A DNA stretch of 5,307 bases, taken from NCBI GenBank assembly GCA_030698575.1, contig JAUYMQ010000606.1, positions 1 through 5,307 on the forward strand, in the 5' to 3' direction. The DNA is from Deltaproteobacteria bacterium. GTDB taxonomy: Bacteria > JAUYMQ01. Made by a program: the position numbers and the translations under genes. How positions within the stretch are numbered: position 1 is the stretch's first letter; every line of letters begins with the position of its first letter. Shown here in pieces: positions 2,406-5,307 of this stretch. Below the pieces are notes generated by a model that saw only the letters and a list, made by a program, of their open reading frames with translations, had not been told where the DNA came from and did no database searches.

Positions 2406-2420
2406 TGGCACGTTCCTTGC
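2406..2420 (+). promoter_or_regulatory. Sigma-54 (RpoN) promoter of the fusion gene
   Basis: TGGCACG-TTCC-TTGC matches the known sigma-54 consensus TGGCACG-N4-TTGCW at every defined position except the last, where C replaces A/T. The invariant GG (2407-2408) and GC (2419-2420) are separated by exactly 10 bp, the required -24/-12 spacing. Transcription would begin near 2432, giving a leader of about 80 nt before the ATG at 2514. The match is unusually good. It lies between genes, points towards the next gene and is followed nearby by a gene for a sigma-54 activator, so it is likely functional. Confidence 0.8.
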
Positions 2421-2437
2421 CCCTAAAAAGGGTAAGC

Positions 2438-2513: not shown

Positions 2514-4448
2514 ATGCCCCGGATCCTGGTCATCGACGACGACCTGAGCGCACGGGAGTCGGCACGTCTCGTGCTGGCCGATCAAGCCACCGTGAGAACG
2601 GCTTCGTTCGACGATGACGTCCTCACGCAGATCGCTCGCGAGCCGGCGGACCTTCTGCTTGTCGGTCTCTCTACCCCGCTCGATCGGCCGCTGCGTGTTC
2701 TCCGGGAGGTTCTACTCGCGGATCCCAACGTGCGAGTGATGGTTCTCGTAGAGCGCGATCTCATGGCCGCCGCGCAGCGCATCTTCGACTACAGGGTCGA
2801 GGCGATCCTTCCAAAACCTTTTGATCCACATGCCCTTCGCCGGCGCGTCGGCGAGGTTTTCTCGGGGCACGACCGCATTCCAACGCTTCGCGAGTCGATG
2901 GAAGCCGCCGAATCCGAGGAGCACCACACCGGCCCGGATCTCGCCGTTCTGCTCCCCGCCGCCCTGCGTCCCTTCTTCGCCCGAAGCGCACAGAGCAACG
3001 GGCACGTCGTGATCGAGGGTGAACCGGGCACCGGGAAGAGCGCGCTGGCGCATCGGCTCCACCTCGATAGCCCCTGGCGCAACTCGCCCTACGCCCGGGT
3101 GGACGCCTGGGCACTCACCGAGGCCCGGCTCGACGCCGTGCTCACGCGCCTGGCCACGAACGGCACTGAACGGGAGCACGTGGCAACGCTCTGCATCGAA
3201 GAGCTGGCGCTGCTCGCCCCCGAGATGCACCCGCTCCTCCGCGATCTCGCCGAGGGGAACTATCCGCCCGGCACGCATGCTCCCGTCCGGCGCATGACGC
3301 TTCGACTTCTCATCACCACGACCGAATCTCTTGCCGATCTCGCCGCGCGCGGCGCCCTGCCTCGCGAGCTTCGGGATGCCATCGCGGTACTCGTTCTCAG
3401 GCTTCCACCCCTCCGCTCTCGCAAAGGCGAACTGAGCGATCTGTGCGCCGTAATCACGGATGAACTCGCGCGTCGCTACGCGCGGGAGCCCGTGCGGCTC
3501 TCGCAAGACGCGCTGGACAAACTGCACATCTACCTGTGGCCGGGGAACCTGCGTGAGTTGCGCACCGTCCTTGCCCGCGCGATAGCCCTCACCGACAACA
3601 CCGAGGTGTCGGGCGACGCGGTCCACTTCATCGACGAGGTGCTGCCGTTCCCGGCCCCGCCGCTCGAACAGGCAGTGGAGGAAGGGCCCCCGACCGCTTC
3701 CGCTCAGACTGAAGAGCCCGCCCGGAATGCCCCGGCCGTGAACCATGAGCCCGACTCGCCGACACCGGAAACAGCCCCCTGGGGGCTCCCGCCCCCCATG
3801 GAGCTGGTGGCCCAGCTCCTGGCGCATGAGGTGAAGAATCCCCTCGTCGCTATCAAGACGTTCACCCAGCTCCTCCGAGACAAGTTCGACGACGCTGAGT
3901 TCCGCGACCGGTTCTATGAGATCGTGAGCGGGGACGTGGCGCGTATCGATTCGCTCGTCGAAGCGGCAACTGCCTATTCGCGGCTCGAGGCGCCCAGTCC
4001 CGAGCCCGTCGATATCGGCGTGCTCTTCGACGACGTGCTGAAGGAGTTCGAGCGGAGCTTTCTCGGCAAGCGCATCCTGGTGCTGCGCGAGGGTCTGGAG
4101 ACCCGGCCCCGGGCGCTCGCTGATCCCGCGCAGCTTCGCTACGCAATCCGCTGCATCATCGCCAAGTCGGTTGATCTGATGCCCGAGGGTGCGGATCTCC
4201 AGATTGGATTCCAGACCGTCGCGGCCACTGCCGGGACCGGCTCACGCCTCGCGGCGACCCTGCGGATCGGCGGCGCCGAGGGCATGATGGCGGACATGGC
4301 CCCATTGGGCGAGCGGAAAGAGGGCCTGCCCGGAAACCTCGAGATGGCGCTTGCCCGGGAGGTTCTCATGCGGCAGGACGGGGCGCTCCGCATCGACATG
4401 GACGACCCGCGCGCCGCGGTCGTCACCATCGACCTGCCTGCGGCCTGA
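2514..4448 (+). CDS. Degenerate receiver / AAA+ / histidine-kinase-like fusion protein
   Basis: This 644-residue cytoplasmic protein has three modules in a combination I do not recognise as a named family. Residues 1-117 are a receiver with acidic pocket (Asp8, Asp9) and Lys101, but Gly51 occupies the phosphoacceptor site and Val79 the Thr/Ser site. Residues about 140-376 resemble an NtrC AAA+ module. Walker A GEPGTGKS (169-176) and the WPGNLREL motif (342-349) are kept. The Walker B region reads LCIEE (226-230), the GAFTGA loop is absent, and the FRxDLxxRL arginines fall on Pro and Ala in my alignment. A Pro/Glu/Ala-rich linker (about 378-427) joins a DHp-like region with His438 in LAHEVKNP. 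In the ATPase-like end, the N-box asparagines align with Cys547 and Lys551, the G1 Asp is missing, and the G2 glycines are partly lost. No HTH is seen. I infer a regulatory pseudo-enzyme rather than a kinase or sigma-54 activator. The uninterrupted frame argues against a decaying pseudogene. Confidence 0.85.
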   Translation: MPRILVIDDDLSARESARLVLADQATVRTASFDDDVLTQIAREPADLLLVGLSTPLDRPLRVLREVLLADPNVRVMVLVERDLMAAAQRIFDYRVEAILPKPFDPHALRRRVGEVFSGHDRIPTLRESMEAAESEEHHTGPDLAVLLPAALRPFFARSAQSNGHVVIEGEPGTGKSALAHRLHLDSPWRNSPYARVDAWALTEARLDAVLTRLATNGTEREHVATLCIEELALLAPEMHPLLRDLAEGNYPPGTHAPVRRMTLRLLITTTESLADLAARGALPRELRDAIAVLVLRLPPLRSRKGELSDLCAVITDELARRYAREPVRLSQDALDKLHIYLWPGNLRELRTVLARAIALTDNTEVSGDAVHFIDEVLPFPAPPLEQAVEEGPPTASAQTEEPARNAPAVNHEPDSPTPETAPWGLPPPMELVAQLLAHEVKNPLVAIKTFTQLLRDKFDDAEFRDRFYEIVSGDVARIDSLVEAATAYSRLEAPSPEPVDIGVLFDDVLKEFERSFLGKRILVLREGLETRPRALADPAQLRYAIRCIIAKSVDLMPEGADLQIGFQTVAATAGTGSRLAATLRIGGAEGMMADMAPLGERKEGLPGNLEMALAREVLMRQDGALRIDMDDPRAAVVTIDLPAA

Positions 4449-4554: not shown

Positions 4555-5307
4555 ATGAACACAAAGATTCTTGTCATCGACGATGAGCCGAGTGTTCGCG
4601 AGTCGCTGAAAATGGCACTCAAGAACGACTTTCTCGTGATCGCGGCCGCCTCCGCGGAGGAGGGAATCAAGATCGTCGAGGAGGATCGGCCGGATCTCGT
4701 GCTGCTCGACGTGATCATGCCCGGGGTCGACGGCATCTCGGCGCTCGAGCGCATCCGCGCCATCGATCAGCGCGTCCCCGTCCTCATGCTCACTGCCTCA
4801 CAGACGCGCAATACCGCCTTCCAGGCCGGCCGGTTGGGCGCTTACGATTACATCATGAAGCCTTTCGAGCTCGACGAGCTGCGGCAAAAGCTGGCGCGCG
4901 CGCTCGAAACCGTAGCCCTCAAGGCGGAGAATCAGGAGCTCCGCTCGGAGGTGAAACGGCGGTACCAGTTCGGGAACATCCTCGGGAAGAGCAAGGAGAT
5001 GGAGCGGGTTTACCGGACGATCGAGCAAATCGCCGTTACGAAAACCACCATTCTCATCACGGGCGAGAGCGGGACCGGCAAGGAGATGGTGGCGAAGGCC
5101 GTGCACTACAATTCGCCCCGCAAGGACAAGCCCTTCGTGGCCATCAACTGCGCGGCAATCCCCGAAACGCTCATCGAGAGCGAGCTGTTCGGCCACGAAC
5201 GAGGCGCGTTCACCGATGCCCGCGCCCGCCAGATCGGCAAGTTCGAAAACGCTGTGGGAGGGACCCTCTTCCTCGACGAGATCGGCGAGCTGTCGCTGAC
5301 CCTGCAG
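4555..5307 (+). CDS. NtrC-family sigma-54 response regulator (5' part, truncated by window)
   Basis: The 251 visible residues form the start of a phosphorylation-controlled activator of sigma-54 RNA polymerase, which uses ATP hydrolysis by its AAA+ ring to open promoters. The receiver (1-120) has the acidic pair Asp9/Asp10, phosphoacceptor Asp52 in LLDVIMP, Thr80 and Lys102, so it looks fully functional. A linker helix rich in Glu, Lys and Arg (about 120-138) leads to the AAA+ module. This shows Walker A GESGTGKE (170-177), the sigma-54 contact loop as GAFTDA (217-222) rather than GAFTGA, and Walker B GTLFLDE (236-242). The frame runs off the right edge. Family members are usually about 450 residues, so the end of the AAA+ module and a Fis-type HTH should lie beyond. 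The start is the first ATG before the receiver. The ribosome site is weak (GGA at 4537-4539, 15 bases upstream). Its probable partner is the kinase at 57-2246. Confidence 0.95.

Follow-up and report, generated by a model that had tools for sequence, protein, structure and literature searches.

The central gene of the 5307-bp stretch of DNA analysed here, ORF2, almost certainly belongs to a conserved, selected family of pseudo-enzymes that is part of a kinase–NtrC locus. Comparison of the members' sequences showed common ancestry, a conserved gene order and purifying selection, together with a dead receiver, an AAA+ module without its sigma54-contact loop, a dead CA (ATPase-like) domain and a preserved first helix of the DHp domain. 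Pseudo-receivers and pseudo-kinases are known singly; the present natural family unites disabled receiver, AAA+ and kinase modules in a single chain, in which one short motif is left untouched.

The window and its three genes

The stretch analysed (the window) was an entire contig (C70) from a 4.1-Mb source genome of 653 contigs. It held three genes, all on the plus strand, to which the coordinates below refer: a 7TM-GAF-HisKA-HATPase kinase, ORF2 and an NtrC-type regulator. The upstream partner (57–2246) encoded a complete histidine kinase of 729 amino acids, in which Pfam matched 7TM, GAF, HisKA and HATPase_c domains and alignment found the catalytic boxes all intact. ORF2 (2514–4448) encoded 644 amino acids, resolved by the ORF list, Pfam and the family alignment into receiver, NtrC-type AAA+ and DHp/CA modules. 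The downstream partner (4555–5307; Pfam) was an NtrC-type response regulator whose receiver Asp and GAFTD-type L1 loop were intact, and whose gene was cut by the contig end. ORF2 lies between a kinase gene and an NtrC-type gene, as the original prediction had stated.

The window kinase scored below the TIGR02916 (PrsK) cut-off (180.5 versus 300). The window regulator scored below that of TIGR02915 (PrsR; 252 versus 502.6), a comparison that is not fair to a truncated gene. Third-position GC of the kinase climbed from 0.47 (57–536) through 0.68 (537–1016) to 0.81–0.89 (1257–2216), and the 7TM part was unlike the remainder of the gene in composition. A 371-codon open frame ran antisense to ORF2 (2712–3827, minus strand) and was in all likelihood no more than the shadow of a GC-rich coding sequence.

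Domains and residues of the ORF2 protein

The GC content of ORF2 at codon positions 1, 2 and 3 was 0.75, 0.46 and 0.80, a coding-type pattern. Pfam matches comprised Response_reg (aa 4–112), Sigma54_activat (aa 156–292), AAA_lid_14 (aa 301–368) and HisKA (aa 435–493), and HATPase_c gave no Pfam match. Residue losses were read against the intact neighbour genes. In the receiver (aa 4–112; 2523–2849; Pfam and alignment), the phospho-accepting Asp was replaced by G51 (codon 2664–2666) and the switch Thr was lost, while Lys101 was kept; a PF00072 match without the phospho-Asp is by definition a pseudo-receiver. The NtrC-type AAA+ core and lid (aa 156–368; 2979–3617; Pfam and alignment) both exceeded their Pfam cut-offs (Sigma54_activat 35 bits, AAA_lid_14 46.9 bits). 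The Walker A motif GEPGTGKS was intact (aa 169–176; 3018–3041), the GAFTGA loop was missing (near 3147–3179), the Walker B Asp had become E229 (3189–3206), and the arginine-finger positions held Pro or Ala.

No HTH family was matched by Pfam where a C-terminal DNA-binding domain would stand; the HisKA region occupies that place. It follows a proline/glutamate-rich linker that alignment showed to be weakly conserved (3618–3815). Pfam, alignment and AlphaFold all identified the DHp domain (aa 435–493; 3816–3992), the conserved core of the family, and its H-box HEVKNPL was wholly intact, with H438 (3825–3827), E439 and N442 (3837–3839) in place. In the CA domain (3999–4445; alignment and AlphaFold) the N-box Asn had given way to C547/K551 and the G1 and G2 motifs were gone, whereas the fold is predicted to persist.

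AlphaFold modelled aa 415–644 as a DHp hairpin and a kinase-type ATPase fold with a mean pLDDT of 79; the alignment used consisted of 11 kinases, so the model is biased towards the kinase fold. Histidine kinases gave the best structural matches, among which were DivL and RetS, both pseudo-kinases. A full-length model made without an alignment reached a pLDDT of only 36.7, and for this reason we make no claim about domain arrangement. The predicted fusion of three modules in an intact 644-codon frame was thus confirmed by the Pfam domains, the coding-type GC and the modelled DHp-CA fold. Judged from its sequence and gene order, ORF2 can be classed as a pseudo-histidine kinase: it has the HisKA/kinase fold, has lost kinase residues and lies within a two-component locus.

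Members of the family and their gene order

Single-protein searches gave a first impression of ORF2 as an orphan. A scan of genome contigs with the ORF2 protein yielded no match, and the window protein as sole query returned only ordinary NtrC proteins from up to 386 sampled genomes. That impression was overturned once a profile was built via the 'Deltaproteobacteria' MAG SURF_34, to which the neighbouring kinase had led (the kinase there is 40% identical). SURF_34 held a full-length ORF2 homologue (E 1.8e-57) with an NtrC gene next to it; its kinase and its ORF2 homologue sat at the ends of two contigs, which is compatible with the gene order but does not prove it. With a profile of two rows and later of eleven, we counted carriers in 23 of 395 sampled genomes of the SURF_34 phylum and in 3 of 4 genomes of another phylum, which with the window genome made 27. 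Three further, more divergent members came from kinase loci (G665, G634 and G714), for a total of 30. The family spans three phylum-level groups, and the open frames in 27 loci were 505–658 amino acids long. The members G634 and G714 (L182:5281–6996 and L183:4347–6062) were much more eroded, still lay between kinase and NtrC genes and kept an H-D-L-R-N-P box.

In 26 other loci recovered by the genome searches, similar losses and an identical gene order recurred, which goes beyond chance. Homologues that have the predicted module order and adjoin both a kinase gene and an NtrC gene do exist. A 7TM-GAF kinase gene stood directly upstream in 25/25 loci with upstream sequence and mostly overlapped the start of the pseudo-enzyme gene. 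An NtrC gene followed in 23 of the 24 loci that could be judged (three end too early), directly in 22 and past one small gene in L042. Because the genes form a 27-locus family with shared losses, they cannot be put down to the decay of one gene.

A close relative of the kinase (>550 bits) occurred in 25 genomes, 20 of which also carried the pseudo-enzyme. Three genomes (G746, G670 and G395) had kinase and NtrC genes directly adjacent without it, and two of the 25 had neither pseudo-enzyme nor NtrC gene beside the kinase. Since some relatives possess the kinase–regulator pair alone, the pseudo-enzyme is an accessory that modulates a pair able to exist without it, and an obligatory phosphorelay (Spo0B/ChpT-like) was set aside on the strength of the three adjacent pairs. 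Because loci of both kinds exist, a two-component pair can be compared directly in the presence and in the absence of its accessory.

Selection and origin

We estimated dN/dS by the Nei-Gojobori method, for which many pairs were unusable owing to saturated dS. Close pairs gave values of 0.22–0.43, and two pairs of greater divergence, whose dS was clearly usable, gave 0.13 and 0.11. The CA domain was usually the least constrained part. In divergent pairs dN was lowest in the DHp domain; in close pairs, where few changes were counted, this domain was variable. Wherever both could be measured, the neighbouring regulator was under tighter constraint than the pseudo-enzyme. The whole range, 0.11–0.43, lay well below 1; a ratio near 1 would have spoken against the original prediction of a selected pseudo-enzyme of this pathway, which the 30 members and their synteny likewise upheld.

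The changes that inactivate every module could also be read as the mark of an ordinary pseudogene or an assembly artefact. This reading has next to no probability, being refuted by the long open frames in 27 loci of three phylum-level groups, the dN/dS values and the conserved synteny.

In quick maximum-likelihood trees, the 27 members formed one clade for DHp-CA and one for receiver-AAA+ (SH-aLRT 100 each); placements inside the clade, the window's included, were uncertain because of long branches. Members without a receiver were about 515 amino acids long and fell in two separate branches, so the receiver was lost at least twice and is dispensable.

Residues lost and kept across the family

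Residue counts were made with 23 neighbouring kinases and 22 neighbouring regulators as intact controls. The phospho-Asp was found in 22/22 neighbouring NtrC proteins versus 0/16 family receivers (G in 14, E in 2), and the switch Thr in 22/22 versus 1/16. GAFTGA and the segment after it were absent from 27/27 members and present in the neighbouring regulators. The Walker A Lys survived in 17 of 27 members, including that of the window, and the Walker B Asp in 3. In the CA domain, no member of the 27 retained the G1 Asp or the last G2 Gly, and 11 retained the N-box Asn. The DHp domain differed: His, H+4 Asn, H+5 Pro and H+12 Phe were each present in 30/30 members. The original prediction, that residues needed for chemistry are replaced in each module, stood for the receiver, the AAA+ loop and the CA domain, but needs correcting for the invariant phospho-His and H+4 Asn and refining for the intact Walker A of the window.

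The acid at H+1 was less constant, with E or D in 20/30 members and R or K in 10/30. At the positions that dock the response regulator, family and partner kinases agreed closely: V at H+7 (28/30 versus 28/28), T at H+11 (29/30 versus 28/28) and L at H+15 (28/30 versus 28/28). Mean identity among members was 53% for the DHp domain and 27% for the CA domain. We saw no co-evolution between pseudo DHp and kinase; identity was 44% to the own kinase and 46% to other kinases. The family therefore offers a clean test of which H-E-x-x-N residues evolution keeps once kinase activity is gone.

Possible role of the pseudo-enzyme

As to its role, the original prediction named a scaffold, an inhibitor or a phosphate acceptor, and this is still a matter of interpretation. 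The reading that we favour, at somewhat under an even chance, is that ORF2 may act as a pathway-specific brake. Its DHp domain would dock on the receiver of the neighbouring NtrC and remove its phosphate, making ORF2 a phosphatase-only copy of the sensor with no need of kinase activity; the loop-less AAA+ part, with the pseudo-receiver where present, would tether ORF2 to NtrC through NtrC-like contacts. Because the DHp domain retains the docking face of the partner kinase (the same residues at H+7, H+11 and H+15), it would be expected to bind the neighbouring NtrC receiver. In HisKA proteins, the H+1 acid is needed for kinase and not for phosphatase activity, while the H+4 Thr/Asn is needed for phosphatase and not for kinase activity, and the isolated DHp domains of NtrB and EnvZ suffice for phosphatase activity in vivo (PMC3510030). 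In the family, the phosphatase residue is kept without exception, the kinase residue is relaxed and the docking positions are shared. This pattern of conservation favours a phosphatase-type antagonist of NtrC over a pure acceptor or a pure scaffold.

The last of these, a scaffold or sensor input that only links the kinase to the regulator or uses its former active sites to bind a ligand, without phosphoryl chemistry, agrees with the loss of key catalytic residues from all three modules, and both ligand binding and kinase regulation are known from pseudo-receivers (PMC12632262). Such a protein would have no need to keep His, Asn and Pro without exception where the chemistry of the DHp domain takes place, and the receiver, its obvious ligand-binding part, is dispensable; we consider it the least likely of the functional readings. 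How pseudo-receivers switch has been described as a mystery (PMC12632262).

Several points weigh against the brake. The phosphatase Asn is retained in the partner kinase too, which would make a second phosphatase redundant in part. CA domains normally boost the phosphatase activity of DHp domains, and that of ORF2 is not expected to bind ATP normally. The role assigned to the AAA+ part is a guess. Lastly, the His is invariant though not strictly required for phosphatase activity, and phosphate acceptance would fit this better.

Phosphate acceptance ranks second to the brake and is rather improbable. Here the DHp domain of ORF2 would heterodimerise with that of the kinase, and H438 would be phosphorylated in trans by the ATPase domain of the kinase, its phosphate passing to NtrC or being kept as in a sink, in a three-component system of the FasB/FasC kind. 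The invariant His fits; loss of the His site is rare, since phosphotransfer has no way around it (PMC12632262). DHp helix 1 is nearly identical to that of the partner kinase, and the genes overlap in most loci, as translational coupling predicts. Precedents are the heterodimer of the pseudokinase ChrS with HrrS (PMC9491836) and FasC, proposed to be a pseudo-kinase that pairs with FasB and receives phosphate from it on its His (PMC12675982). The Fas system of group A Streptococcus resembles the present locus in that kinase and regulator are accompanied by a proposed pseudo-kinase, which has kept its phospho-His and can dispense with its CA domain (PMC12675982); the phospho-His is likewise kept in 30/30 members of our family. 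However, FasC is a membrane sensor kinase, whereas the pseudo-kinase of ORF2 lacks a membrane part and shares its chain with two other dead modules, a receiver and an NtrC-type AAA+, and the regulator types differ. Moreover, R or K stands at H+1 in 10/30 members, where HisKA phosphorylation needs an acid. Arg occurs at H+1 in other histidine kinase subfamilies, so this is not absolute proof against phosphorylation. Two further facts count against phosphate acceptance: the pseudo DHp resembles the DHp of its own kinase no more than it does those of other kinases, and kinase and NtrC stand alone in some loci, so a relay step is not obligatory.

The AAA+ part was present in every member, including those without a receiver. 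By known rules it cannot act on sigma54; it may tether ORF2 to NtrC or poison NtrC rings. If poisoning were the whole of its function, the loop-less AAA+ module would join or cap the NtrC hexamer, mixed rings would be unable to contact sigma54, and ORF2 would be a dominant-negative inhibitor of transcription activation. GAFTGA mutants of activators mostly cannot activate transcription (PMC7175178), and the family has lost this motif throughout while the AAA+ and lid signatures (WPGN, PLR.R) persist and the Walker A Lys remains in many members. Against this, the AAA+ part evolves faster than the DHp domain, many members have lost the arginine-finger positions, so that their ring contacts should be weaker, and the invariant DHp motif is left unexplained; poisoning alone is unlikely, if a little less so than a pure scaffold.

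A combination is conceivable but doubtful, slightly more so than phosphate acceptance: a dual brake made of an inactivated kinase half and an equally inactivated NtrC half and acting at both ends of the pathway, in which the DHp domain would strip the phosphate from NtrC or draw that of the kinase, the AAA+ part would block the rings, and expression in the window would be induced by the regulator. If true, ORF2 would represent an antagonist dedicated to a two-component pathway and built in a new way, an architecture conserved in no fewer than three phylum-level groups.

A sigma54-type site upstream of ORF2

The 267-bp gap before ORF2 contained a motif match to a sigma54 -24/-12 type promoter, TGGCACGTTCCTTGCC (2406–2421, plus strand), one match where 0.04 were expected by chance. 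The site suggests a feedback in which active NtrC would induce its own brake. A site of this type was not found at the same place in relatives, so the feedback is claimed for the window only, and this restriction to the window is a further point against the brake.

Comparison with known systems

BumS (PMC11796366) and the DHp domains of NtrB and EnvZ (PMC3510030) resemble the brake that we favour, as histidine-kinase-type proteins that, without kinase activity, dephosphorylate a regulator. BumS, however, is the sole sensor of its pair, whereas the ORF2 locus also has an intact kinase and ORF2 carries a receiver and an AAA+ module. Among pseudo-kinases, DivL (4q20) matched the DHp-CA model with Z 17.4 and rmsd 4.2 over 210 residues, and RetS structures matched as well. 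DivL and RetS act on a partner kinase and, unlike ORF2, have no NtrC-type modules; in DivL, Tyr replaces the His.

The nearest curated relatives of the partner genes by architecture were PrsK and PrsR of the PEP-CTERM system, a membrane kinase and a sigma54-dependent NtrC-type regulator in tandem (PMC1569441). According to the published description, the two genes usually stand in tandem without an intervening gene (PMC1569441), unlike the ORF2 locus. NtrC-family enhancer-binding proteins that lack domains (PMC7175178) share the AAA+ core and lid with ORF2, but ORF2 has no GAFTGA loop and no DNA-binding domain, and ends in a DHp-CA region instead. Defence-system profiles (PADLOC) gave mainly AAA+ matches, to RtcR-type regulators, and were rejected. 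In Pfam, NCBIfam, PADLOC and the literature (subscription papers being mostly outside reach), we found no family in which a single chain contains disabled versions of all three modules, receiver, AAA+ and DHp-CA, in agreement with the original prediction, which knew of no named family with this architecture.

Other features of the loci

In L130, the G604 pseudo-enzyme followed a kinase and no NtrC gene adjoined it. The small gene in L042 (L042:468–827) encoded 119 amino acids and by eye looked like a four-helix 23S rRNA intervening-sequence protein. Two tandem 7TM-GAF kinases preceded the pseudo-enzyme in L127 and L129 (the G187/G589 loci). In most loci the kinase gene was preceded, as a rule immediately, by a FabF-like beta-ketoacyl synthase gene (L070, L071, L075, L076, L077, L127, L128, L132, L133, L134 and L136). 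Downstream of NtrC, a further receiver protein (L039:4090–5274, L075:8942–10105 and equivalents) was fused to an intact kinase in some loci, while others had an HD_5 (HD-GYP-type) domain instead, so that the output is swapped at a single syntenic position.
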